Positions 15,553 through 58,530 of a stretch of 64,000 nucleotides of DNA are shown piece by piece; positions within the stretch are counted from its first letter, which is position 1, and every line of letters begins with the position of its first letter. This DNA is from Punctularia strigosozonata HHB-11173 SS5. Lineage: Eukaryota > Basidiomycota > Agaricomycetes > Corticiales > Punctulariaceae. The stretch is taken from contig NW_006767440.1 of assembly GCF_000264995.1 (NCBI RefSeq), positions 552,787 through 616,786 on the forward strand, written 5' to 3'. Under the pieces are notes generated by a model. That model ran no database searches. It saw only the letters and a program-made list of their open reading frames with translations, and was not told where the DNA came from. A program made the translations under genes and the position numbers.

Positions 15553-17287
15553 TCAGCTCCTGCACCCACAACGGCATGGCTTCGGAATCAGCAACTCACA
15601 GATCTCCTCATACCTCCGCCGCCGCGCGGGATCTAACTCTATCAGACGCTTGAGTAACTCGCCGCATTCATCGGCGAGCTTATTTCGCTCCATGGCGGTC
15701 AACTCGTTTGAATGCGTCCTAATCGAGATCCGCTTGTAGTGGACGAGGGTCTCCATGCACCCTAAAGCCATGCTGTCAGCCACACTTCGCAGAGAATGAG
15801 CGAGCAAGACTGCGCACATTTGCTATCCGGCTGTTCGTCCAACAGTTCCTGGATCACGCTCATCTCGCGTTCCACCACGGCCCTATCCTTGCCTAGCCCG
15901 GCGGCAGCATCAGTATGCGCATATCGATTCTTGATGGAGGCGTTTTGGAAGCCAACGAACCTTCTCCTATGAGCCACCTGTGGTATAGCCAGGCACTCTG
16001 ATCGGCAGGGTCTGTGTAAAGCGCGTTGTGGACTAGCTCGAACTCTGCCCGTGCCGGTGGCAAGAAGGACCGTGTCAGTGCTACGTCAACGGGAAAGTCG
16101 TTGTGGACGGAGATACTACGTTCGCAAGGCGAAGTTTGAAGCTCGAAGATAGATGCTTCTAGATGCGGCCAGCACCGCTGTGGGTAAGATGGGCGCTGAG
16201 CGGCGTCGCCAGCGGCCCTCCGATCCCACAGCGTAAGACCGGAGCATGACAAGCACATTTCTGGAACTCGCCCGAAACGGCCGAGTGGGGAGGAAAAGTG
16301 GAGTGGGGTCACAACCTGCCCTGTGAGCGCTCACCTTCTTCCCGGCTCTGGACGGGATCAAGCTCGCCGTTGTCCCACAGCGTCTGGAGGACCTTGGTCC
16401 GCTGGTGCCATGCGCTGAAGTTGGAGAAGCTGGCCTCGATCTTGCGCGTCGTGTAGTCGAGCTCCGTGTGCGGGTGCCGAGGAACTGGCATGCTGGCGAG
16501 AACGTATCGACGATAGCCCCATGCATGGACTATAGCAACTGTGTCAGCGTCGGTCGACTTGGCCAGATATATGTGCATGCTGATGATGAACGTGGACAGC
16601 AGCTAGGGAGAATGGTCGGTACGCACAGTTCCTAGCATCGACGTCGAGCATTTTCTCAACAACGAACAGCTCCCTGTCCCAATGTGCCTTCCTCCAACCA
16701 TGGTCATCACCTGGTGGCCCGAGGGGGACGTTTTCGAGACACCATCGCCGGTGGTTCCATATCCAGTACACCTTCGGGTGCTGCTTGAGTGCTGCGGTGG
16801 TCATTTGAAGATCCGTTGACAGTAAGTCGTTGATCTGCTCAGGCGTACTGATCAAAAGCTTTGAGACAGAGGAACGGGGCTCTTAACGAGATGAATCATC
16901 ATACCTCGCTGGGAATAGTCCCTTGGTCATGATATTGCGCCTGTAATTCCATATGGTGTAAAACTCCGGGTTGAGCTGGAGCAAGCGGGTGGTAAGCTGG
17001 AAAGCATCCTGGCTCCAGTCTTCGCTCTTCTTCTGTGTATAGGAACAGGGCACGATGAGTACAGTCGCGATCGCGTACGTGTTGCGTAGTGTAGAGCGCC
17101 TGGGACGGTCCTCACCTTGGAAAATATAGTATCAGTCAAAGAAATATATTCGTTAAGTTTCGCCTGCTCTTTCTGTTTGCGGGCTGCGACGGCCTCAGGG
17201 CTTTGGCGGGCGCGTTTGACGCCGTGCGACTGTGCATACGAGTGAGTCTCGACAGATCCAGCGACGGTAGCATAGAAAACCAACCAT
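15553..17287 (-). CDS. BET4: Rab geranylgeranyltransferase alpha subunit
   Basis: Alpha subunit of the type II protein prenyltransferase, which with a beta subunit attaches geranylgeranyl groups to Rab GTPases presented by the escort protein. Eight coding exons join to 1029 nt (342 residues): 17287-17285 (the ATG alone), 17229-17116, 17032-16905, 16847-16627, 16529-16335, 16044-15961, 15892-15818 and 15761-15553. The product begins M-S-HGVKRAR, like the MHG start of the family. It shows repeated prenyltransferase-alpha motifs: NPEFYTIWNYRR, HPKVYWIWNHRRWCLE, ARNFHAWGYRRYVL, FSNFSAWHQR and DQSAWLYHRWL. Intron 5 (16334-16045) is 290 nt, unusually long here. The last few residues (after RRYEEI) may be altered if a further splice exists. 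It is divergent from SYF1, with 170 bp between the start codons. Confidence 0.85.
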
Positions 17288-17457
17288 GGTATGATCGAAT
17301 ATCGGAAGGTGCAGTGGGGGGCAAGAAGGAGAGGCACTTGTGCGCGCAAGACGCGGTTCAGGCTCGAGTTGACGCACGCAGTCACGAAACGCGCCTTCGC
17401 TCTTGCGCCATCCTCCCTTGCTTGCCCATTGCGGGCTCGGTCCTCTCGTTCGACAGA
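17288..17457. promoter_or_regulatory. Bidirectional promoter, BET4 / SYF1
   Basis: Only 170 bp separate the opposed ATGs of the RabGGTase alpha gene and SYF1. Both promoters and 5' leaders must overlap here. No TATA box is evident, as expected for housekeeping genes. Confidence 0.5.
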
Positions 17458-20400
17458 ATGGCTTCCAACGACGCAGTCACGGTAGAAAATCTCGCGGCAC
17501 AATTCCCGCTAACGTTTCCTGTACCCTCGCCAACGACACACTCGGAATTATTGACCCCCGGCGACCTCAACCGGGAGGAGGACCTCCTGCGCAACCCACA
17601 GTCTTTCAGGCATTGGTGGACTGCCATCAACAATGTCAAAGACAACTATCGTGCTCTGCAACGGAGCGGGCAGGAAAAGCTGGATGTCTCGCCCGAGGTT
17701 GCAGCCCTCCTCGGCCCGCTTGCTTCGCCGCTCTCCAGGATCACACTCCAGCGGTTGACCTACCTGTATGAAGGTGCGCTGAGGTACTTTCCGGGGAGCT
17801 TCAAGCTGTGGAGAAGTTATCTGGCAACGAGGATGAACTTCGTGTTGGGAAAGCTGGAGACAAAGAAACGGGCCGGGGGTCGGAAGAAACTCCCGGAGAT
17901 GAAGGACGCATTGGAGGAGGAGAGGGAGGAGCTGGAGAAATGGACAGGAGGCTTGGATGGGATCGTCGGCTGGGAGGAGTGGAAGTCCCTAATAGCGACG
18001 TTCGAGCGAGCGCTCATGTGGTTGCCGAAGGCACGTCCGCGTTCACGTAGTTCGTACGTGCTTTGATCTGACACGTCCACCAGTTCCCTCGATTATGGCT
18101 CATGTACCTCTCCATCTTCTTCCATCCATTCTGCCCTCCTCAAATTTCGCATACACACGCTCGTCGGACATACGACCGTGCCCTTCGCACGCTTCCTCCC
18201 TCTCTCCACCACCGCATATGGGTCCGCTACCTTCTATGGGCCGAGCGGCAAGGTGGCATTACCACTGTCGCCATATTCCGTCGCTACCTCGCCGTCGACC
18301 CCAGCGTCACCGAGTATTACACGGCGCTGCTTCTTGCCGAGAACAACCCTACGCCGCGGCCGCTCGAGGCCGCTAAGCTGCTCCTCAGTTTGGCACGAAA
18401 AGCTGCAAAGGGTCAATATACGAGTCCAGAGGGCAAAAGCCCGTATCAGCTCCTGACTGAATGGCTCGAGGTAGTCGAGAAGTACGCGGAAGAGGTCGGT
18501 TTGGACGTCGAGGACACCGACGCAGCGGGGAAACAGGCCGCCCAGGTCGAAGAGGCGAAAAAGGAGGTCGATCAAGCCACTTCAGAGCCCGCATCGGTGC
18601 ATGGCCAATTGATCCGCATAGCCGGTCCACCCGTCACCGTCAACGCCGACGGCACCGCTGTCCGGCCGTACGACGAGGACGAAGACCCTACCTCTTCCCG
18701 CAAGCTCAACATCGAGCGCATCATACACGAAGATGGCCTTGCCGTCTACAAAGACCAAGCCGGCCGTCTCTGGACCGGCCTCGCCACGTATTGGATCAAG
18801 CGCGCTGAATTTGACCGCGCGAAGGCAACGTTCGAGGCTGGGCTTGCGTCCGTGCTCACGATCCGCGATTTCACGCAGATCTTCGATGCGTACGCCGAGT
18901 TCAGTGAGAGCCTGATCAGCGCGATGATGGAGAGCATCGCGGAGCCGGACGAGGATGAAGACGAGGAGAGCGCACAGGAGACGGAGAAGGAGCTCGACGA
19001 GAAGATGCGGGAGTTTGAGCAGCTAATGGATCGCCGGCCGTTCTTGCTGAACGACGTGCTACTACGGAGAAATCCGAATGACGTCCAGGAATGGGAGAAG
19101 AGGCTGGCGCTATGGGGAGAGGACGATGACAAGGTATGTGGCTTTCGTTACCCCTATACTCTGTCTCAACGGTGCTAATATTGCGGAACCAGGTTGCGGA
19201 AACATACAAAAAAGCTATCGAGACCATCAACCCCCGTAAAGCCACGCCAAACCTCTACCGTATCTATGTCAACTTCGCCAAGTTCTACGAAGAGGGTGGC
19301 GTATCAGGCAAGGCTGAGTCGGATATCATCAGCGCTCGCAAGGTGTTGGAGAAGGCCACGAAGGTCCCCTTCAAGACCGTAGAAGACCTTGCAGAAGTTT
19401 GGTGTGAATGGGCGGAGATGGAACTGAGGCATGAGTAAGGGACTAGTCCACATTTGGCCCATACTGTTACTCACGATCGTTCAATCGCAGCAACTACGAC
19501 GAAGCGATTCGGGTGATGCAACGGGCGGCTGCTGTGCCCAAAAACACCAAGATCAACTACCACGATCAGGTATGTCTATTTTCGCTTCGGTACGTGCGCC
19601 GTGCTGAGATCCGTCCAGACGCTTCCCGTACAGGCTCGCCTGTTTAAGTCACTCAAGCTTTGGTCATATTACGTCGACCTTGAAGAGGCTATTGGCACCG
19701 TCTCCACCGCCAAGGCCGTCTACGAGAAGATCCTTGAGCTTCGGATTGCCAACGCGCAGATCATCGTTAACTATGCAGCCTTCCTCGAGGAGAACAAGTA
19801 CTTTGAGGAGAGCTTCAAGGTGTATGAGAAGGGCGTGGAGCTGTTCACCTATCCGATCAGCTTCGAAATTTGGAATATCTACCTCAGCAAATTCGTCAAG
19901 CGATATGTAAGTGCCGAAGTTTGACTTGTGTTTACCTTGACTGAAACGCATGGCCATTCTCTGATAGGGTGGAAGCAAGCTCGAACGAGCGAGGGATCTG
20001 TTCGAGCAAGCGCTTGACAAATGCCCGCCGAAGTTCTGCAAACCGATTTTCCTCATGTACGCTCAGTTGGAGGAGGAATACGGTCTCGCGAAACGAGCGA
20101 TGGCAGTGTACGACCGTGCCACGGGGGTTGTGCAAGATGATGACAAATTCGAGGTGGCCCATGTTCCTGACTACTACGTCGCAGAGCTGACTTGAGACGT
20201 TTGCTCCAGATGTTCACAATTTACATCGCGAAAGCCGCCTCGAATTACGGCCTCCCTGCCACCAGGCCCATCTACGAGCGTGCCATCGAAGTTCTTCCCG
20301 CCCGGCAAACAGCCCAGATGTGCCTGCGCTTCGCCGCCCTCGAGCGCAAGCTGGGCGAGATCGACCGAGCCCGCGCGATCTACGCGCACGCCTCCCAATT

Positions 20401-36800: not shown

Positions 36801-38874
36801 ATGGATCCTATCGTGTCTCCGAATACGTGAGTCGTGGTATCGATTGATGTCCTCTGGTAGACTCATGTGATCGTCTGTCAGGCTCGCAGAAACTTCGTCT
36901 CCCGATCGTCACGCCTCGAGCGTTTCACGCGGACTCACTCAGCGCGACGAGCAACGACAGCAGGTCGATCGCAAGATTCACGACTTGTGTCTACAAGCAC
37001 AAAGAATCTTGGGTCTGTTCCGGTCAACGGACCCTCAGTATCCACCGGGCACGAACTCAGACGCGCTACTCCTTGAGCTCGATAATGCCATCTCATGCTC
37101 ACCACCAGCAGATGTCGCCGGACAAGAACATCGTATACGACTCTCATCTCTGGGCTGCGAAGCGATGGTAAATCTCCGCGACCGGCTCAGATTACTTCAC
37201 GAGGAGCGCAATTCGCTAGCCCCGATTTCCCGACTGCCCAACGAAATTCTCATGTTCGTCTTCGTGTTTTGTGTTTCCCGTACCGAGCACGATTTCAAGT
37301 ACGACTCCCGCTCCGTGACCTTGTTCCCGTACACACACGCATTCGCCAACGTCTGTCGATTCTGGCGACAGCTCGCACTCAACCTGCCCTCTGTCTGGAC
37401 ACACGTTCCCCGTTCCTCGCTGCAGTTGACCCGGACCTTTTTATCGAGGTCGAGGAACTTTCCGCTGTTTCTGAATAGCTCGTTATCGTACCTGGCGACT
37501 ACGGATCCAGAAGCCCAAGATTTGGCGCTCTCTCATTTAGGACGCGCGCGTATGCTGGACTATAACTACTTCGTCGTCGCGGGCCACGAGGCAATTCTTT
37601 CTTCCCGCGCCCCCTTACTTACCTTGTGTCGTCTTCATGCCGGATTGAATAAGAATGGAGGGCGATTACCAGACAACTTCCTAGGCCGCGATTCGCCGCA
37701 CCTTCGCACCCTCAGCCTGGAGGGAATATCTTTTGATTGGGACTTGATGCGTTGTGCTTCCCTTTTTCAGAACTTGAGGAAACTATCTCTCTTGCAACTG
37801 CGCGCGAATTCATTCCCCACTGCTGAGCAACTGGTGACGGCTCTTCAGAAGATGCCGTTGTTACAGGATATCCTTATAATAGCAGCGCACAAAGAGGTGT
37901 TGTTGCCCATCGAAGGGTGTTCGGTCGTGGTGGTCTTGCAACGCTTGACAAAACTCACACTGCACGCCCCAGTCTCGCACGTCTGCGATCTGCTCGACCA
38001 TATCCGTGTTCCTTCCTGTACTAGAGTGAGCCTCGACCTCTACCACTCCGAATCCGACCTCGACAACGGTCCCTCCCTGATGGCTTTCCTTGACCGGCAT
38101 TGCACCTTCAAAGGCGATGGACCCCCTCTGCGATCCATAAGTTACAGGCTATATAACGAGAAGGAAATCGAGTTCTGGGTGCACACCGATAACGACGAGT
38201 TTTCTGAGTCTCAGCTGCTGATCCTGAATCTCTCTCTGTTCGACTCGAGAGGGCTGCTCACCCCTGTCGTCCGCAGGTTACTGCTCGGGGGAATCGGCCT
38301 CGTGAGGATGATTGTGGAGGGGCACTGGGACTACAAGATGACCGAGGTCGAGGCTATGATCAACCTCATCCTCACCCGGTGCTCTTCGGCAACGACGATC
38401 GAGCTGGAGAACATCACTGCTTGCGAATTCGCCGTCCAGTTGCTGTTGGGCTTCACCTCGAGCACCAGCCCTGACGTTACTCCCGTCATCCCTGATCTGC
38501 TGCCATCGCTGCGGCGGATGTATATGAACCTCCATGGACATAGGTCCATCCCTCAGTTTCGCGTTTTGTTGCCGAGACTGCTGGCTCTGAGGACCGGTAT
38601 GGAGCTCGATATCGTCGGAGCCAACAGACTGAAGGAGGAGTACGTGGAGAGGCTCCGCGAGATTGCGGATCGTCCCGAGCTTGTGAAGGTGTCGATTTTA
38701 GAGGGGAGCGACTACGATCCCGACTGTCGGGAGTTTGGGGGTGGGGGGTCGCACGTGGGAGATGGGGAAGAAGAATGGGACGAAAGCTCGGATGGAGGAG
38801 AAGAGGACTCGGACGCCGGCTCAGGCTCGGATGGGGCTGCGGAGGGGACGTTGGCCGAAGTCTTGGATGCATAG
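36801..38874 (+). CDS. F-box protein with leucine-rich C-terminus, 672 residues
   Basis: Predicted substrate adaptor of an SCF ubiquitin ligase. The first exon is 26 nt (36801-36826), followed by a 55-nt intron and one large exon 36882-38874; the total is 2019 nt. After a Gln-rich linker a coiled segment (LHEERNSLAPISRLPNEIL) runs into the F-box (about residues 95-145, ISRLPNEILMFVFVFC ... NVCRFWRQLALNLPSVW). The remainder has irregular leucine-rich repeats (LRTLSLEGISF, LRKLSLLQLRA) as in many mushroom F-box proteins. The C-terminus is Gly/Asp/Glu-rich and disordered. Such proteins form very large, fast-changing families in basidiomycetes; the target is unknown. Another member lies at 49147. 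Confidence 0.85.
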
Positions 38875-47077: not shown

Positions 47078-49146
47078 GATCACAAGAGAAAAAAAAGAGA
47101 GAGACCTGGGTAGTTCTGTTTTCCCGATCGCTGACCACTGGACCCCCCACCGCCCGACGCCTACTTTGGGACGTACGCGTGGCCTAGCTCTGACTCGCCG
47201 CGGGGACGCGCCACCTGCTCCTCATCCGGAAATGCCCCATACCGAGTCACCGACGCCCTCGCTCCCGAGGACCGGACCCACAGCTCACCTCCGAAACCTC
47301 CGTCGCATCTACACACATTATCATCTGCATCATCGTCATCATCATCATCATCGTCATCGTTCCCGTCCGTCCGCAATCAACACACCGCCCCTCTATCGCG
47401 CTTTGACTCGTACATATCACCGACCCATCCTCACCCCACTCATTCGTTCTTAGTCAATACGTCACTTTCTTGTGTAAAGTATGCATACCAGTAAGGCTAC
47501 ATCGCCGTTGTAACGTGTTACAGCATTATCATAAAATATCGTAGTCTGCACCCGTAACTCGGAGGCGCTTGGAGCTTAAGACCGACTGCTCGCGTGCCCG
47601 TCGAGCCTGGGCGTGCACGTCGTCGCTGGGACGCACGACGAGCAAACGATGGAACGCGAAGCGGAACGGACCACCCACCCACAGATCTCGAACATCGACA
47701 AGGGTCTCACGAGATATACATGCGCTCGAACGGTCGACATCTAGCGAGGGGGCGAGAGGAAAGTCAGGCCGAAAAGATAACCGCCAGCGTGATGCACAGA
47801 CGTGTGTTACCTTTCTTGAACGTGTTTTCGCGCTTCGTCGCGGATCGACGACGGCGGGAAACATCCGCCCTTTCTCGACCCCGCCTGCACGACCGCTCGT
47901 GTTCTTTCGGGGGCCCCCCGGGATCGATCGGGCTGTCGTCGTCGCGTGCAGAGCAAGGGAGGAATTGCGTCCGACGAGCAGCGTTTCACGACGTCGCGAT
48001 CCTATTAGGATGCAGTTTCGGTGCGCGTCGGGCCTCTTCGATGGTTTTTCAGCAGGGTCTTCCCGCTCTCCGTGGCATATTGCCGCCTCCGTCTGTTTCG
48101 TGAGCCTGTTCACGTCGCGGTGCATCATCCCTTCAAGATCCATGCCTAGGGTATAGGTCGATGAGCTCCAGGCCGACGGTGTCCTAGCTCTGATACATAA
48201 AGGAGGCGGGCAAGGTGAAATGGGGGTAACGAAAGGGCGCAGGGAATCTTTTGCGTCCTGGGTAGCTGGCCGGCGTGAAGGTGTTCTCGTCATTCCACTC
48301 GTCGACATCGTCGGAACACGATCAGGTCTCTGATCTCTCTACTCGTCAGTGGCAGCAAACTGGGAACGGCTCTGGACACGATGCTCACAATCTTGAACCA
48401 CACCCAAACTCTTCCTGCTTGACGCGGTCGCATTCAAGCTCCATCCGATGATATCTTTTTCGCCCGGTTCTTCGCTCTCATACGTTGCTTCCTGCTGGCC
48501 ACAGTCTTTGAGTTACAGTGAGCACGATAGCTGCGAAGAACAACCGAGTAGGTCTACCTACAGCGCAGCGCTTTGGAAAACGGTTACGAGAGCAAAGTAT
48601 CGCTGATTAAGTTGAAGATGTTTCAAGAGCACCATGATGAGTGGGGACTACGAGCGGGACCGTGACCGCGAGCTTGTTAAACCGAGGATGCATAGAAGTA
48701 GGAGCTCATTTTCGGCCAACGCATACCGATCGTGATACGGCATGCGACCCGGTGACCTGCTCCGTCGGGCATGCCTTCTTGACGTCGTTCTGGAATTGTG
48801 GATGAAGTGGTGGAGACATGGGTCTGGGTTGGAGGGAGAGACGAGTAGGTGAATCGAGTGAAGATTCAAGTGCGAGGAGTATTTGGCGAAGAGCGCGCCT
48901 CGACGTCGTGTTGGCTTCGCTGATAGGGGCTAGCCCGTACACGTTTTGTCGCCGCGACCACTGAGAAACCACTGAGAAATTCAACCTCATTTACGACCCT
49001 ACTTACTGGCACCGCGCAACGACGCGGGTCAAAGTGGAAATACGCGGAAATGCCGAAACGGTGAGCTTTTGCACGTATGCTCAGCTCATACCTGACTCTG
49101 TCCCCCCTTTGTGGATGATGCCAGCGTGCGAGTCGATAAGGAGCAA
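47078..49146. other. About 2 kb without a supported gene
   Basis: This contains a CAT/CGT trinucleotide microsatellite (about 47325-47365), a relic resembling the 3' end of the acyl-CoA synthetase gene (47488-47575) and a 259-codon minus-strand frame (48308-47529). That frame shows little amino-acid structure except short acidic and basic runs and overlaps open plus-strand frames, so it is not called. Confidence 0.35.
47488..47575 (-). repeat. Relic similar to the 3' end of the acyl-CoA synthetase gene
   Basis: Aligned with 55496-55595, both contain GCCGTTGTAA, TCATAA(A/G)ATATCG and AGTCTGC followed by a ...CTTGGAGC... block at about the stop codon of the synthetase. Similarity is roughly three quarters by eye and stops just beyond the last codons. 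It is probably a fragment left by a duplication. Confidence 0.5.
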
Positions 49147-50844
49147 ATGGCAACGTCCTCGGAATCAGACGACAACCAGGACCTCATAGGTGCTCTCTCG
49201 TACGATCCGGAGCGAAGAGCTCGTCTCCTGGAACTAAGCCATGAATCGCGGTGGATACGAGAAGAAAAAATACGTCGTATGCGTGTCGAGCACAACGCGG
49301 TGCAACCCATCAATCGCCTCCCTCCGGAGCTCTTGGCAGAGGTCTTCGCGTTCAGGCAGACCAACCCATATAACGGTTTACCACGTGGTATCACCGATTG
49401 GCCTCCGTCTGTAATGCTGGTATGCCGCTCCTGGCACTACGTAGCCCTGAACGTCGCCCAGGCACTTTGGCGATGGTTAGACCTCGAAGAAGGACCGACT
49501 CTCGCGGTTGCCCTCGGCGACCGTTTCAATGCCGGTTACCTTCGCATCATGTGGTACAACCGTCAAGGTGAAGAACCCTCTCTCGAGTCGGTCGCGGCCT
49601 TTAGGTATTTGTGCCTCAACCACGCTTCGCGCATCGAACGGTTCGATATCCACTTTGGGTGGGTGTATTCGGTGGACGTCCTTGCCGCACTGGAAACCGC
49701 GTTGGATGCGCTGCAGGAGCACACGACCGCTCTGCGCACCCTTAAGATCGATTGGTCCGCGCATCACGTCGACGACCGTGCTGTGCCCCAGGATCAGATC
49801 ATCACCCGGCTCTGCCAGCTGCGCGCCCCCGCTCTCCGAGACCTTGGAGTCCCATATCTGATCCCCGGCTTCATGAAGTCCAGCGCAATGTCCTCTCCCT
49901 CTCTGCGCCATCTGTCAATCGGCCCTGGCGCCTGTCGCGCCACACGGAGCACGCTGGCTGCTACGATGCAGATGCTTTCAACCCTTCCCAAGTTGGAAAC
50001 CTTGCATGTGGACGACTGTTTTCTTCAAGATCCACGCCGGCCGGTGCACTCCGTGTCCCTGCCAGACGTGCATCTATCTTCGTTGCGCAAGCTCTTTCTG
50101 CGCGCAGAAATCCCAACATGCCTACTTTTCCTTCCGAAAATACACATACCGGGTTCGCTCGCGAATTTCACCGTGCATTTCATCCACGACCACCAAGACG
50201 AAGAATTTCCCGACGCCCGCGCACTCTGTGAGCTCGTGCGAGCGAAGCAACAGCTTGACGCGTTTTCTGTCGGCATCGAGCACTTCAGGATCACTCTCAA
50301 AGGAGGCAAACTCAGGGAAGGTTGTCCGATTCCGTTTGCCTACCCAACGGTCGCGAGCTTCTCAGGGTTTCGCAAAGAGAAACGCGTAAGCATCTACCTC
50401 GACTTCCTATCTAGTATGGGGACGTCCGTCGTAGCACTCGAATTTTGGGAGTTGTGGAAGGGTGACCCGAGCTTGCGGGACATCCTGTCTAAACGCCCCT
50501 TTATCCGCCATATACGCGCAGTCGACAACCATTTCGTCTCGTCTATCTTCAACGCGATACGTACGGAAGAACAGCCTGGGATGCGACCGCCGAGCTGTAT
50601 CCTCCCGAACTTGACGTCCATGGAGATCCAGAGCCCGAGTTATGATTTCCAGTGGTTCGACCTTTGTCTCGCCGAGCTCACATCGCGATGCCTGTCGAGC
50701 GAGCCTACCTTTCGAACCCTCACACTCACGACGCACATAAGTCTTGGGATAAGTCTTGGGGAAAGACGGCTGAGGAAACTTAGGCATGTTGTCCCGGAGG
50801 TGCACGAGAAGAGCGTGCGCTCGTCGCCGCGATGGATGGCATAA
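49147..50844 (+). CDS. F-box protein, 565 residues, single coding exon
   Basis: Uninterrupted frame from the ATG at 49147 to the stop at 50844. The frame is open a little further upstream (GTG at 49111), so an upstream exon is possible. A helix with RARLLELSHESRWIREEKIRRM leads into the F-box (about residues 55-115: QPINRLPPELLAEVFAFRQ ... VMLVCRSWHYVALNVAQALWRWL). The rest has degenerate leucine-rich repeats (LRHLSIGPGACRAT, KLETLHVDDCFL). Same general class as the F-box gene at 36801, but not a close copy. Predicted SCF adaptor; the substrate is unknown. Confidence 0.83.
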   Translation: MATSSESDDNQDLIGALSYDPERRARLLELSHESRWIREEKIRRMRVEHNAVQPINRLPPELLAEVFAFRQTNPYNGLPRGITDWPPSVMLVCRSWHYVALNVAQALWRWLDLEEGPTLAVALGDRFNAGYLRIMWYNRQGEEPSLESVAAFRYLCLNHASRIERFDIHFGWVYSVDVLAALETALDALQEHTTALRTLKIDWSAHHVDDRAVPQDQIITRLCQLRAPALRDLGVPYLIPGFMKSSAMSSPSLRHLSIGPGACRATRSTLAATMQMLSTLPKLETLHVDDCFLQDPRRPVHSVSLPDVHLSSLRKLFLRAEIPTCLLFLPKIHIPGSLANFTVHFIHDHQDEEFPDARALCELVRAKQQLDAFSVGIEHFRITLKGGKLREGCPIPFAYPTVASFSGFRKEKRVSIYLDFLSSMGTSVVALEFWELWKGDPSLRDILSKRPFIRHIRAVDNHFVSSIFNAIRTEEQPGMRPPSCILPNLTSMEIQSPSYDFQWFDLCLAELTSRCLSSEPTFRTLTLTTHISLGISLGERRLRKLRHVVPEVHEKSVRSSPRWMA

Positions 50845-51487
50845 ATGCCTTTGCGGGCTTGATTATGATGAAAAGGTCTGCATCGCGATCAGCACATCCT
50901 TGCATGCTAAAGCATAGCGAATCAGCAAGAGACGGCGGAATGTTGAATGGGGACCCATCGATGATCGCATGAGCAGTCACTGTAACACTCTGTACAGTGC
51001 CTCCCATGGTTCACGACCGTATTGATAGAATTGTATATCGTACGCCGTCCTCCTCGTACTTTGCTGTTGACCGTAACATCCACGATAGCCGTATGTTCGA
51101 ATTTGGGATAACAACGAGAGTAGTACAGATGAACTATTGAGGACGCTCCGGGTGCCGGTTGGGGACGTGTATCATCGCGTCCACGTTCACCGCGTCGATC
51201 GTTGACCCCGCTCCTGGAATCCTGGATGGAGGCAATCCAACATTGAAACACATTTGGGTGCCTGCCTGCCTATTTTGGATGATTAGGGGCTTCCGCGGAG
51301 ACGCGACCACCCCCTTTCGCCGCATTTGGACGGTTGACTGCCTCTTTTGGAATAGCTGTGCTCTCCGTGGTATGCTTGCCCTTCACAAGCTTCACATCCT
51401 TGCGGGATACCAAGGTGCATACCATCCCGCCTGTCAAGCGGATAGTCTGCATTCACACACAGAGATGCGGTCTTCTGCCGCTGGTGG
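50845..51487. other. Intergenic, upstream of the micro-exon gene
   Basis: About 640 bp with no supported gene. A plus-strand frame at 51159-51683 runs across the TATA box and into the first exon of the next gene and is treated as chance. Confidence 0.35.
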
Positions 51488-51493
51488 TATAAA
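51488..51493 (+). promoter_or_regulatory. TATA box of the micro-exon gene
   Basis: TATAAA, 161 nt upstream of the ATG at 51649. The interval has no other ATG and includes a pyrimidine-rich leader (CTACTTTCTCTCCAACC). Confidence 0.55.
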
Positions 51494-51648
51494 GATCTGC
51501 GTGCAGCGCGTTGGGAAAGCATCAGCTACTTTCTCTCCAACCTCCACCAGCAACCGCGACCTGTTCCCCGAAGACAAGATACCCACGACATCGCCTCAAC
51601 ATAACGTGACAAGAGCAAGACGCGTTCACGACGGCAACAATCCACGCA

Positions 51649-54600
51649 ATGGACACCGACTTCGCTGTCTTGTCAAAGTATAAGCCTTCGCAACCTTTGC
51701 CCAGCTTTAGTCATTGGCACTTGGACAAGTCTAGATTATGTTTGTGGGCCCCATCCATCCGAGGTACGCTTAGATTATGCGGAGACCGTTTTTAGGCCGT
51801 TGTCACCGTCAGTCGTCTCCACAAGAATGTAAGTTTGACGACACGCGAAAGGTTATACGGCTTGCTGAACCCTCCTCAGATCATCTTCGGTGACATCTGT
51901 CGTCTCATATCATGTGTGTCGCAGTCTTATTCTCGAACATGCTGACTGTCTTTCACAGGACGCGGAAGGTACGTGCTCGCTTGCTTTGGATAGGCTCGCT
52001 GACTGTCAATTTCAGAATTGTCATCGAAGGTGCGTACCGGTTTCTCTGTCTCAAGTTACTGACTCTTTCACAGCGTGGTCACTCAAGGTACGTGTTCCTT
52101 TCGGCTTGGATTGAACGGAATGACTTTCATTTTCAGAATTGTCATAAAAGGTGCGTACCGATTTCTTTGTCTCAAGTCACTGACTCCTTCACAGCGTGAT
52201 CATACCGGGTACGTTTTCCTTCCGTCTTGGATAGAACGGACTGACTGTCATTTTCAGAACTATCATCGAAGGTGCGTACCCCGTTTCTCTATTTCAAGTT
52301 ACTGATCATTTTACAGCATGATCGTTTAAGGTACGTTTTCCTTCCGTCTTGGATCGAACGGACTGACTGTCATTTCCAGAATTTTTACCGAAGGTGCGTA
52401 CCGGTTTCTCTTTCTCAAGTTACTGACTATTTCACAGCGTGATCATTCAAGGTACGTTTTCCTTCCGTCTTGGATCGAACGGACTGACTGTCATTTCTAG
52501 ATTTTTTATCGAAGGTGCGTACCGGTTTCTCTGTCTCAAGTTACTGACTATTTCACAGCGTGATCANNNNNNNNNNNNNNNNNNNNNNNNNNNNNNNNNN
52601 NNNNNNNNNNNNNNNNNNNNNNNNNNNNNNNNNNNNNNNNNNNNNNNNNNNNNNNNNNNNNNNNNNNNNNNNNNNNNNNNNNNNNNNNNNNNNNNNNNNN
52701 NNNNNNNNNNNNNNNNNNNNNNNNNNNNNNNNNNNNNNNNNNNNNNNNNNNNNNNNNNNNNNNNNNNNNNNNNNNNNNNNNNNNNNNNNNNNNNNNNNNN
52801 NNNNNNNNNNNNNNNNNNNNNNNNNNNNNNNNNNNNNNNNNNNNNNNNNNNNNNNNNNNNNNNNNNNNNNNNNNNNNNNNNNNNNNNNNNNNNNNNNNNN
52901 NNNNNNNNNNNNNNNNNNNNNNNNNNNNNNNNNNNNNNNNNNNNNNNNNNNNNNNNNNNNNNNNNNNNNNNNNNNNNNNNNNNNNAAGGTACGTACCGAT
53001 TTCTCTTTCCTCAAGTTACTGACTATTTCACAGCGTGATCATTCAAGGTACGTTTTCCTTCCGTCTTGGATCGAACGGCCTGACTGTCATTTCTAGATTT
53101 TTTATCGAAGGTGCGTACCGGTTTCTCTGTCTCAAGTTACTGACTATTTCACAGCGTGATCATTCAAGGTACGTTTTCCTCCCGTCTTGGATCGAACGGA
53201 CTGACTGTCATTTCCAGATTTTTTATCGAAGGTGCGTACCGGTTTCTCTTTCTCAAGTTACTGACTATTTCACAGCGTGATCATTCAAGGTACGTTTTCC
53301 TTCCGTCTTGGATCGAACGGACTGACTGTCATTTCTAGATTTTTTATCGAAGGTGCGTACCGGTTTCTCTGTCTCAAGTTACTGACTATTTCACAGCGTG
53401 ATCACTCAAGGTACGTGTTTCTTTCACCTGGGATTGAACGGACTGACTGCCACTTTCAGAGAAAACTCCCAAGGTGCGTGTCGGTTTCTCTGTCTTCTGT
53501 TACTGATTATTTCACAGGACGATCCTTGAAGGTACGTCTTCCCTTCATCTGTTTGAGCACACTGATTGGCATTTGCAGAGATAACTCCCAAGGTGCGTAC
53601 CGGTTTCTCTGTCCTGAGTTGCTGACCTTTTCATAGATCGTCCGAGGTGCGTGTTTCCTCTCGGCTACAAGCGAGCGGGCTGACTGCCATTTTCATAGGC
53701 CGAAGTAAAGGTGCGTGTTGGTCTCTCTACTCCAAGCTACTGATCCTTTCACAGCGCGATTGCCGGAGGTACGTTTCTACTTTGATCTCGTTCCGAGCGG
53801 ACTGATTGCCATTTTCAGAGAGCGACGAGAAAGGTGCGTGCTGGTTCCTCTGTTTCGAGTCACTGACTATTTCACAGGATACTACAAGGTGCGTGTTCCT
53901 CTCTTTGAATCGAACGGACTCACTGGTATTTTCAGAGAGCAGCAGGAAAGGTGCGTGTTGGTTTCTCTGTTCAGGTTACTAACGCTTTCACAGGATGCTC
54001 GTTCAAGGTGCGCGTGTTTTTTCCCCCATCTCATTCCGAACGGACTCACTGCCTTTTTAGAATGCAACGCGAAAGGTGCGTGTTGGTTTCTCTTCTAAAA
54101 CGACTGACCCTTTCACAGCACGGGTATTCGAGGTGCGTTTTCACTGTCATCTTGGAGCGAGCGGACTGACTGCCGTTTTCACAGACCGACGGGAAAGGTG
54201 CGTGGTGGTCTCTCTGTATTAAGTTAACTTTTTGTCAGCGTAGTTGCTCAAGGTGAGTGCTAGTTTTGTTGTGAACTGAGCGGACTGACTGCAATTCACG
54301 GAGAGCGATGGAAAGGTGCGTGCGGGTTTCTTTCTCTCAAGTTGCTGACTCTTCCACAGGGCTCCCGGTCGAGGTGCGTACTTTCCTTCGTCGTGGTTCG
54401 AGCGGACTGATTTCTGTTCAAAGAGAGTAGAGGTAAAGGTGCGTGCCCGTTTCTTTGTCTTAAGTTACTAACTCCTTGACAGAGTTCTCGTTCGAGGTGT
54501 GTGTTTTCCCGGCCGTATTGGATTGAACGGACTAATTGTCATTTGCAGAGAGTAACGGAAAAGGTGCGTGTCGGTTTCTTTGTCTTAAGTTCTGACTCTT

Positions 54601-55127
54601 TTACAGCGTGATCGCTCGAGGTGCGTGCTACTTTCGTCTTGTGCCGAGCGGGCTGACTGCCATTATTCTCTAGAGCTGGGAGAAGAAGGTAAACGCGCCT
54701 TTTTCTTTTTGCTGCAAGTCGACGATGGGCTAACCACCAGTTGCAGGGCGGCTGCGATTTGGCGTTCCGCTCGGGGAAAGAAAGTAAGTCGCCCATCCAC
54801 CGCCTTGTCACAGAACTGCAGTTGAAACCCCTGCAGGTTGATGTTAAGACCACGCAGTCGGCCAAAATCAAGGTGCGTCGTTCCGACCTTTGCGAACACG
54901 CTGATCAGCTGTATCACAGGATGCCGGATAGGTGCGTGTCTTCATTGACTATCGGATGCGGTTGATTGTCTCCTACCGGACGCTCGTGCACTCATGTCCC
55001 TCCCAAGAAAGAAAGTAAGTGCCTTTCCTCGGTCGTCGGCTGCTTCCCGCTCCGCCAGAGAACCGCGGTGACACCCCCACAGGTTGATGCTGAGACCATG
55101 AAGATCAAATGTACGAAAGGCGAGTAG
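51649..55127 (+). CDS. Micro-exon gene: about 48 visible exons, most 10-15 nt
   Basis: I recognise no family. From the ATG at 51649 a 115-nt exon is followed by exons of 16, 34 and 10 nt (51813-51828, 51880-51913, 51959-51968). A long series of 14-nt exons follows (52016-52029, 52074-52087, 52137-52150 and so on to 53410), broken by the assembly gap. A diverged series of 10-15 nt exons runs from 53460 to 54688. Last come exons of 37, 36, 12, 7 and 45 nt (54747-54783, 54837-54872, 54920-54931, 55008-55014, 55083-55127) ending in TAG. Introns are mostly 44-51 nt, with donors GTACGT/GTGCGT/GTAAGT, CTGAC-type branch points 10-20 nt before the acceptor, and CAG/TAG acceptors. From 53579 to the stop the spliced frame is open in one phase if two GTAA donors are used; the product there is charged and disordered. 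Full inclusion of the homogeneous core meets TGA. Splicing is predicted, not observed. Confidence 0.6.
52016..53410 (+). repeat. 121-bp tandem repeat, homogeneous core of the micro-exon gene
   Basis: Each unit reads: 49-nt intron (starts GTACGTTTTCC, ends CATTTCTAG), 14-nt exon ATTTTTTATCGAAG, 44-nt intron (starts GTGCGTACCGG, ends TATTTCACAG), 14-nt exon CGTGATCATTCAAG. Units near the gap are almost identical; those at the edges diverge. Beyond 53410 the same alternation continues in strongly diverged form to about 54690. Confidence 0.95.
52567..52985. other. Assembly gap (419 N)
   Basis: The gap interrupts the tandem core inside one CGTGATCA exon and resumes at the end of the alternate exon. 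419 is about 3.5 repeat units, but resuming 10 nt out of register with the 121-bp period suggests the length is an estimate. Confidence 0.95.
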
Positions 55128-55577
55128 CTCTATTTTGGCGAGAAGCCTGACTGGTTCCTCAGTCAGAGGGAACGCGAAAAGTCGCGAGTCCTCCTCTCAC
55201 GTCTGATGGCTTCACTAGCATTCGTCGAAAAATGGACTTGCGTTGCGATAGCCCTCGGTTCTCGTCGCACCTGGTCGTTCTCGACAGCGCATTATGCTTG
55301 GAGGCGAGTGTCGCCTTTGTAGCGAGCGTTGATGCAATCACTGATCCTCTTGCTCAATGCAAGTTGTGGGACAGTTCCAATCCGAGCGAAGGTCGGTCGA
55401 TATCGTTGCAACGTCGCGTGCGATGTATTCAAGCTTGTCGGGGTCCGGTTCCGTACCAAATTCGAATGTTGTTCATGGTATGAAGATTATATATACAGTA
55501 AGCCTAGATTGCCGTTGTAATGCATCACCACACCGTCATAAGATATCGAAGTCTGCGTCCGTATTCCGTGGTAGCAT
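55128..55577. other. Convergent 3' ends
   Basis: 450 bp between the micro-exon gene (+) and the acyl-CoA synthetase (-). No gene is seen. Confidence 0.4.
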
Positions 55578-58530
55578 TTAGAGCTTGGAGCCGCGGCTGG
55601 CGGGTTCGCCGAGGGCGTACAGCCCGTCAAGTTCGGCCTTGTACTTGGCGTATGCGTCTTTGCTAGAGACAAGATGATGCGTGAGCAAGAGACGCATTAC
55701 GAGCGATGTCTCGAAAGAGATCCTCACCGGCGAATCTTGAGCGTCGGGGTCAAGGTCCCGTTCTCCACTGTGAAGGGGTCCAGGGAGACATGTATGCGCT
55801 TGATCTGCTCGAATCTGGCGAGCTAAAAGTTAGTGTGATCTCCTACGATGAACAGACGGTGCACACGGACCCTTTGAGCGCGTTCCGCTTCGCCTCGGCG
55901 CTCAAAACCTTGTGGATCGCGTCGACAACCTTGGGGTCACGCGTCGCCTCCACGAGAGCGGCTCCGTCTTCCGCAGCGACGGGCTTGCTCCACGCCTTGG
56001 AGGCGAGCACGGCCAGCTGTACGGGGTCGGGCACGACGACAGCGACGAGATACGACTGTAGCGAGTCGCCGTGCACGTAGAGTTGCGCGACGATCGGCGA
56101 GGCGCTGTACAGGCCCTCGACTTTCTCGAGCGCGACGTACTCGCCCTGCGCGAGCTTCATGATGTTCTAAAATGCGGGTCATGAGTAACACGGACCGGTG
56201 TGGGAGCAGCCTTTGAGGTACAGTACCTTGACTCGGTCGATGACCTTAAAGCGACCGAATTCGTCGATCTCTCCGACGTCGCCGGTGTGGATCCAACCCT
56301 CATCGTCGACGGTCTCCTTCGTGTTCTTCTCGTCTGCAAAACCGGAGCATCAGTTATTGTTCATGGAAAAAGGGACCGTGTGAGCTATACCTTTGTAGTA
56401 CGCCTTGAAGCAGTTGTCGCCGCGCACGCAGATCTCGCCTCGAGGGTTAGGCTTGTCCTCGGAAGTGTAGTTCATCGCGGGAACGTCAAGCAGCTTGATC
56501 TCGCAGCACGGCTGCGGCGAGCCGATAGTGCCTGAGCAGGTCGTGTCGTCTGGCCACGTCCGTGTGCACGTTCCGCAGTTCTCCGTCATGCCGTATCTGA
56601 GCGGTATATTCAGCGCGTGCTCGCCTTCCGCATCGCATTCGTGTGCGAACTCACCCCTCGATGACGGCGGCGGGGGCAAAGAAGATCTTCAGGTGCTCGA
56701 TGACCTCTCTGCTGATCGGCGCCGACCCAGTACACAGCATCTTGATCTCGCCTCCGAGCACCGCTTGGATCTGAGAGACGCACGCGCTCGTTCAGTATAC
56801 CAGCATCGGTCTTCGCGAAGATGGCCAGGTTGTGCGCACCTTCTTGAACACGAGCCGATCCCACAGCGCGTGCTCCCGGATGCCGGTCGTCCGGAAGCGC
56901 TCGAGTTTCGCCGCGACCGCTTTGCGGAAGAGCGTGCCCTTCACGCCGGGGGTGTTACCCGCGACCATCGCCGACTGGTAGATCCTGTTCAGCACGCGCG
57001 GGACGGAGGGCATGAACTGAGGCTTGAGGATCTGCGCGTCTTCGAGCAGGCGGAGCGGGTCGCCGGTGAAGTAACCGATCGATCCGCCGGCGCAGATGAC
57101 GCCGGATTCCATGGCGCGCTTGCGATGCGTTCATGATTCACGCTATTCGCGAAACATCACGCGAAAGGGAGATGGCGTACCTCGTAAATGTGCGCTAACG
57201 GAAGGTAGGAGATCATGCGGCCCTTGTCGGGGATATCCAACGCGTACAGGTTGGCTTGGGTGGCGGCAGCCAAGTTACCGTGTGTCAGCAGTACACCTTT
57301 GGGATTGCTAGTAGTGCCCTGCAGCGGTGTTTGTCAAATTTCTGTCTCAAAGCTCATGTCTCACGTCGAAATGCTCACGGAGGTGTAACATATCGTCGCG
57401 AGCTGATCGGGCGTCGCAGGGATGGGTTCGATCAAGTTCTCCTTGCCCAAAGCCTCCACTAAGAGTCATGTTCAGAGACTGGTCTCCACATGAACGCGGA
57501 ACTGTTGAGCTCACGTTCTCGTAGCGTCGTCAGTTTGATGTTAACCGAGTCCGCCCACGAAGTCAAGAGAGGCTTGGCTTCGGCGGAGAGGTCGTCTAAC
57601 GATACTACCATCTTCAAGCACGGTATCCGCGGCGCCAACTTGAGCACGGTAGGGATATGTTGCGGGCCGACAAAGACTACTGTCAAGTACGCATGGTTGA
57701 TGCTAATAGAGTGGTCAGCGACGGTGTCCAATTATTCTTGAGAGGGGGGGGGAGTGATAAATACATGTATTCTGTGGATGACGATTGGTCAACGAGGTCA
57801 GTAAGTATTCTGGGACATGCTCACCGACGGAGTCCTTGCCAAGGGTATCGTACAAACTGACCGAGACCTTTTGGTACGCGTTCATCGCGAGGTCGATGAT
57901 CTGCCATTCTTTCGACAGGTCAGTTGAGCCGCATACGTAGCACTACGACGGAGGGAGGGAGGGCTCACCGGGCCTATTCTGACTCCACAGACCGACGGTC
58001 TCCAGTTCACCACCACCGAGCGTGCCGTCGCGGAACAGCTTGTAAACGGCGCTGCCCACAGCCCGTCGGCGCGCGTCCACCTGGGCGTACGTCTCCCAAA
58101 CGTAGTGCTTCGCGAAGGTCAAGGGCGACGTGCTGAGCAGCGGGCGGTGCCCGAGCATGGGCTCGTCTCGGGACGCTTTGAGGCCGACCTCGAAGGCTTC
58201 GGTCATCGTCCGGAGGTGGTTCGGCGTGTCCAGGGTGAACATTCCGTAGCCGCCTGCGCAGCCCTCGTCAGCAACCTTTTCCCTTCGATCCCGAAATGCC
58301 GACTGTTCACGTACCATTGCGATAGTGCGCTGTTTCAGGTCGCGGAAGAACAAAAGGTGGAAGAGGTGATGAGTTTCTGGCCGCGTGCGCCCACGGCCGA
58401 GCGACGCACCTGTCTGCCCCGGCTTCTTGGTGCCAGGCACGGGCACGGATTGCTTGGTTAGGTCAAAGTTGGGCGGGAGCGCGACCCGCTTGTCGTCGGG
58501 TGTAGGCGCGAGTTGGGGTAGTTTCGACAT
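55578..58530 (-). CDS. Long-chain acyl-CoA synthetase with peroxisomal signal
   Basis: Activates fatty acids to acyl-CoA via an acyl-AMP intermediate. Fifteen exons: 58530-58410, 58329-58315, 58253-57969, 57908-57825, 57771-57765, 57702-57515, 57458-57379, 57318-57181, 57118-56840, 56770-56655, 56596-56391, 56333-56227, 56166-55871, 55814-55728 and 55662-55578. They sum to 2094 nt (697 residues), the size of yeast Faa1/Faa4. Motifs present: GQT-AHYRN near the start, the ATP loop [38 protein letters not shown] and [21 protein letters not shown]. It ends ASRGSKL, so a type 1 peroxisomal targeting signal is predicted and a role in feeding beta-oxidation is likely. Two exons are micro-exons: 15 nt (AHYRN motif) and 7 nt (completing VEYIINHA). 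Confidence 0.92.

Follow-up and report, generated by a model that had tools for sequence, protein, structure and literature searches.

A tandem repeat carrying its own predicted introns forms a micro-exon array in the basidiomycete Punctularia strigosozonata

Can a fungal transcript be assembled from dozens of exons of 10-15 nt, and would such a transcript encode a protein? The question is raised by a locus of Punctularia strigosozonata HHB-11173 SS5, located within a 64,000-nt stretch of contig NW_006767440.1 (positions 552,787 to 616,786, forward strand), which was analysed as a whole and is referred to here as the window. Exons of 10-15 nt fall far short of the sizes that exon recognition normally requires. 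The genome, of 33.6 Mb, has short introns. The original prediction, made from the letters of the sequence, described the locus as one protein gene built from such micro-exons.

The locus was segmented with a script that chains donors, branch points and acceptors, and six introns at the 3' end were set by hand (three added, three changed), mostly by comparing neighbouring units. On the plus strand, 46 visible introns and 47 exon blocks were obtained between 51649 and 55127 (Table 1). Among the 44 complete internal exons, 41 are 16 nt or shorter and 26 are exactly 14 nt, while the 39 array introns (introns 3-41) measure 41-53 nt, with a median of 45 nt. The donors are GTGCGT in 25 of the 46 introns, GTACGT in 12 and other hexamers in 9; the acceptors are CAG (36), TAG (7), AAG (2) and GAG (1). 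The alternation of micro-exons and short introns that had been predicted over 3.4 kb is thus recovered. The same holds for the proposed TATA box and start codon; the ATG at 51649 is the sole ATG between the TATAAA at 51488 and that point. Further exons had also been expected within the assembly gap, whose length fits about three more 121-bp units (77 + 121n = 430, giving n = 2.9 by arithmetic). Assembly errors could be present in the gap and in the near-identical core. At the 3' end, a terminal exon motif is duplicated (KKVDVKTTQSAKIK / KKVDAETMKIK, at 54774-54872 and 55008-55127). Its two copies stand in differing frames when all exons are joined, and by eye their introns have diverged and the exon is better conserved than the introns.

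Table 1. Features of the micro-exon locus in window coordinates
Feature	Position	Strand	Remark
Putative TATA box (TATAAA)	51488..51493	+	Consensus match only
First exon with ATG at 51649, open in frame	51649..51763	+	
Leader: introns 51764-51812, 51829-51879 and 51914-51958; exons of 16 and 34 nt	51764..51958	+	
Micro-exon array, 5' part, up to the gap	51959..52566	+	
TGA at codon 74, first in-frame stop of the frame with all exons included, exon 8	52197..52199	+	
Assembly gap, 419 N within the array, inside one exon block	52567..52985	.	
Near-identical core units, adjacent identity 0.96-0.98; B exons CGTGATCA(T/C)TCAAG	52986..53410	+	
Older, diverged 3' units, adjacent identity 0.62-0.79, splice signals kept	53411..54688	+	
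Terminal part: exons 54747-54783, 54837-54872, 54920-54931, 55008-55014 and 55083-55127	54689..55127	+	3 introns hand-set
TAG at the end of a 112-codon open stretch in the 3' half (all exons included)	54929..54931	+	
Final TAG, in frame with the chain of A exons	55125..55127	+	

Two other identities were considered for this stretch and rejected. For a structured or small RNA gene, Rfam searches gave no match at E<=1 (51000-56000) or at the gathering score (window), no tRNA was detected, and the folding z was -0.18 for a core stretch and +2.95 for an old stretch, the latter being less folded than its shuffles. For a gene on the opposite strand, the minus strand contained no chained introns, and no stop-to-stop ORF of at least 100 codons within 51649-54541; a minus-strand ORF of 121 codons is located at 54542-54904. 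In the neighbourhood, the window includes a gene for the splicing factor Syf1 (17095-19175, plus strand; Pfam HAT_Syf1) about 32 kb from the array, a piece of which has its PDB matches among spliceosome chains, 9l5r being the best, and a TRAPPC13 domain elsewhere. Two long, uninterrupted F-box-like ORFs (49144-50841 and 36871-38871, both on the plus strand) fall below the Pfam cut-off, and the second had no match in PDB sequences. An ORF resembling an AMP-binding C-terminal domain (55846-56166, minus strand), also below the cut-off, is convergent with the array gene.

The array is a tandem repeat with a 121-bp period (TRF). Each unit consists, in this order, of micro-exon A (14-15 nt), intron I (about 44 nt), micro-exon B (14 nt, shorter in some old units) and intron II (about 49 nt). 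In an alignment of eighteen units, adjacent ones share 0.62-0.72 identity between unit 10 and the 3' end, and nine old units on the 3' side share a mean identity of 0.66. The core is considered recent because its units are 0.96-0.98 identical. The array appears to have grown by local tandem duplication, with its newest copies probably in the middle. An ancestral half-unit of 60 bp was also considered, and the two halves proved no more alike than shuffles that keep the motifs (P=0.11 and 0.41). Since the halves have no detectable kinship beyond the splice motifs, the 121-bp pair is taken as the unit that spread.

No comparable run occurs in the rest of the window or in shuffled sequence. When introns are defined strictly and only exons of 6-17 nt may join them, the longest run counts 20 in the array, rather than the whole array, because the gap splits it. 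By the same definition, the two strands of the remaining window have longest runs of 1 and 2; the array's own minus strand gives 0, and 300 Markov shuffles give 0 or 1. A genome-wide scan for three GTRCGT donors at intervals of 53-71 nt gave 35 matches, 25 of these in the array and 10 elsewhere, and the reversed control gave 11 against these 10, which indicates no excess outside the array for GTRCGT donors. The splice signature itself is the ordinary intron style of this genome, as the pattern GTRCGT..CTGAC..CAG has 1218 genome-wide matches versus 222 for its reversal. Two looser genome-wide scans gave no clear excess over reversed controls (401 versus 365, with about 30 matches within the array, and 224 versus 334, with about 31). 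In searches of the genome for paralogues, DNA from the 3' array, the 5' end and the 3' end each matched its own locus alone, and viral contigs contained no match to a 25-base array pattern. Additionally, the pattern scans returned two matches in inverted orientation about 23 kb apart (C4:1097342-1097540 on the plus strand and C4:1120320-1120518 on the minus strand of the genome) and three near-identical matches (C2:376375, 394303 and 413582) at a spacing of about 18-19 kb, which likely belong to a repeat family.

The diverged units reveal which parts of the repeat have been kept. Among the nine old units, mean pairwise identity is 0.91 in splice motif columns versus 0.61 in other intron columns (P=8e-6 over columns), and intron interiors exceed exon bodies in identity (P=0.005), P values that are descriptive only because columns and tandem copies are non-independent. 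Exon bodies are no better conserved than introns (A 0.57 and B 0.38 versus 0.61), and the last two exon bases are invariant. A separate alignment agrees, with 0.84-0.93 for the motifs, 0.54-0.68 for intron interiors and 0.46 for exon bodies (gaps excluded). Splice columns that stay nearly fixed in units about 66% alike argue for real splicing. Signals kept while the rest drifts are the pattern that selection for splicing would leave, and no such constraint is seen in the exon bodies. A satellite that is not spliced and resembles splice signals by chance, or a misassembly in the region of the gap, would account for some of this, given that near-identical copies repeat any motif by descent, that the gap sits inside the repeat, and that unspliced stop-to-stop ORFs on the plus strand of the array reach 129 codons (53709-54095) and 123 codons (53265-53633). 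Nevertheless, we consider this explanation very improbable: the motifs persist, on one strand only, in copies that differ at one third of their sites, and the array adjoins a TATA box followed by an ATG-free stretch up to the start codon.

With all exons joined, the frame opened by the ATG ends in a TGA at codon 74 (position 52197), upstream of 39 visible introns. The frame drifts because each pair of A and B adds 28 nt, and the visible core after the gap has stops in each of the three frames, since A and B make up 28 nt and B contains a TGA in one frame. Ten of the 44 internal exons are divisible by three. The longest open run comprises 112 codons, lies in the old half and ends at 54929-54931 (P=0.03-0.29 in six tests on two segments); inside the old array exons alone, the open run is 84 codons (P 0.09-0.32). 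Codon usage singles out no frame of the array exons. The joined post-gap exons gave z values of 1.7, 2.8 and 3.4, all above shuffles, with scores negative throughout, and in the first eight exons the ATG frame scored 1.75 and one of the other frames 2.4. As a reference, an F-box ORF that also belonged to the training set reached 4.9 in its own frame and about 0 in the others. Pfam returned nothing in the 73- and 112-residue readings, and the first 73 codons had no homologue in a protein database that is seemingly poor in fungi. The latter result says little, because an F-box neighbour was also without a homologue among 8000 scored candidates of the same database.

Over the visible sequence, full inclusion of the exons therefore does not give a protein gene, and the original prediction has to be divided. 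A spliced gene of micro-exons is favoured by the strand-specific, kept signals. The single protein gene is unsupported, given the stop at codon 74, the closed frames of the visible core, the few exon lengths in threes and the absence of a frame preferred by codon usage. The final exon had been thought to complete that gene with its stop; with all exons joined, this stop (55125-55127) is out of the open frame with the ATG. A gene in decay would reconcile some of these observations: the 3' half would represent an older micro-exon protein gene, whose frame was broken by a recent expansion of the core in this strain. The near-identity of the core units, and hence their recent origin, agrees with this proposal, as does the 112-codon run. 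However, that run is statistically weak and has its own upstream stop in exon 24, outside the core, and exon lengths come in threes in no more than 10 of 44 cases, and we regard a decaying gene as quite unlikely.

A different picture emerges when all B exons are skipped. The resulting chain of A exons contains no stop between the ATG and the gap, nor between the gap and the final TAG (55127), whichever boundary is chosen for exon 36. Openness on both sides had P=0.0017-0.008 against in-exon shuffles and 0.17 under exon-order permutation. The 16 unique A exons contain 6 stop triplets versus 11.7 in shuffles (P=0.007), while the 15 unique B exons contain 8 versus 9.5 expected (P=0.33). Furthermore, of the 11 A exons that follow the core, 6 have a length of 15 nt. 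All three features favour a reading in which the locus is a protein-coding micro-exon gene that operates through exon choice. A-only isoforms, with joining introns of about 107 nt, would be open, an included 14-nt B exon would serve as a frameshifting poison cassette, and B-skipping would act as a switch between protein and decay.

Several observations weaken this reading, which we hold to be rather unlikely. Intron I, leading from A to B, has a GTGCGT/GTACGT donor and a CAG/TAG acceptor in 19 of 19 cases; as these are the most uniform sites, B looks like a used exon, not a dead one, and the A acceptors include one GAG and one AAG. Both sides also stay open in 17% of exon-order permutations, and 10% of random subsets of 14 of the 28 exons are open to the final TAG. 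Three exon chains (A, B, and A with B) had been tried, and by arithmetic the length of the gap is a better match for four A exons than for three, the number needed to preserve the frame. The A-only isoform, at which these sequence features weakly hint, is accordingly treated as a lead and not as a result.

To the explanation that we consider best supported, a spliced and self-excising tandem repeat that is not translated through with all exons kept, we give an even chance. Its anatomy, the tandem repetition and the constraint on the splice signals are direct observations. The locus would be transcribed as one unit, most of it made up of a tandem repeat that includes introns. Tandem duplication would multiply the unit, and the unit's own splice sites would travel with each new copy, so that nearly the whole unit would be excised from the RNA and about 28 nt left. 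Owing to the 28-nt frameshift and the TGA in B, a full mRNA would reach a premature stop with dozens of exon junctions still ahead, and the full-inclusion RNA would most likely be non-coding or a product of nonsense-mediated decay. What is kept would be the splicing of the array rather than an encoded peptide. Transcription and splicing are both inferred here. We count against this explanation the 112-codon run, the openness of the A-only chain, the stop depletion in A exons, the post-gap codon-usage z values, the 129-codon unspliced ORF and the by-eye conservation of the terminal exon. A bolder formulation, which we regard as unlikely, is that of the first fungal gene made of a micro-exon string, with about 50 cassettes in which in-frame A and frame-shifting B alternate. 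Splicing choice would then yield either a variable repeat protein or RNA decay, and a self-excising minisatellite would have turned into a splicing switch.

If spliced as drawn, the locus would be an extreme case for the fungal spliceosome, with 39 array introns of 41-53 nt separated by exons of 10-15 nt. In fungi it would also offer a natural test of intron definition, exon skipping and nonsense-mediated decay, and gene annotation would be prone to overlook it. Within one locus, the gradient from new to old copies shows how tandem duplication can multiply introns and which signals are retained by selection.

A literature search, with subscription journals mostly outside its scope, found no fungal precedent for a micro-exon array, in line with the earlier statement that no such fungal gene was known to its author. 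Micro-exons as such are known in fungi. According to the passages cited, P450 genes of the white-rot fungus Phanerochaete have exons down to 6 bp and frequent introns of 45-55 bp (PMC1184071), and Xlr2 of Trichoderma includes a functional microexon (PMC11121469). In contrast to the array, these micro-exons lie within ordinary coding genes, and the passages concerned mention no tandem strings (PMC1184071, PMC11121469). An annotation paper on Ganoderma states, in the part cited, that very short exons can be misaligned by long reads (PMC11590231), and the cited part of a paper on Cryptococcus contains nothing comparable (PMC3990503).

Among animal systems, the MEGs of schistosomes and tapeworms resemble the array in their strings of very short internal exons and in being hard for gene finders. 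As described in the sections cited, MEG exons are mostly multiples of three, Schistosoma introns span 0.1-5 kb, and the products are signal-peptide proteins (PMC7653826, PMC10526429). MEGs are defined there by at least seven exons, of which at least half are micro-exons (<70 nt, divisible by 3) in runs of at least four (PMC7653826). In the array, by contrast, 10 of 44 exons among the 47 exon blocks are divisible by three, the longest run of these is 2, the introns measure 41-53 nt, and the exons derive from a 121-bp repeat. The bicycle and megacycle genes of aphids likewise have many micro-exons, more than 100 in megacycle. The section cited describes internal bicycle exons that almost all start in phase 2 and proteins with signal sequences and CYC motifs (PMC9168663). 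The array departs from this phase-2 rule: its phase drifts because of the 14-nt exons (26 of 44), and no frame is open across it under full inclusion.

The stwintrons of Ascomycota are similar to the array in that neighbouring short fungal introns are removed consecutively, but in a stwintron one splice element of the external intron, its donor, branch point or acceptor, is split by the internal intron (PMC9024468, part cited), whereas here complete introns are separated by blocks of 10-15 nt. Introner-like elements (compare PMC4457414) are near-identical introns present in many genes, from which the array differs in that the 3' array DNA matches its own array alone in the genome, within the limited sensitivity of that search. 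Work on Drosophila has argued that nonsense-mediated decay can shelter newly gained introns (PMC2809761, part cited). Internal tandem duplication is a known process by which introns multiply, the duplicated stretch carrying introns or splice signals with it, and the 24-bp AGGT exon repeat of fission yeast is a fungal example of such intron gain (PMC4974935, part cited). The array fits this process, as its 121-bp units each carry two predicted introns. The cases named in that part of the source involve one or a few introns (PMC4974935), whereas here 39 array introns are found at a single locus.
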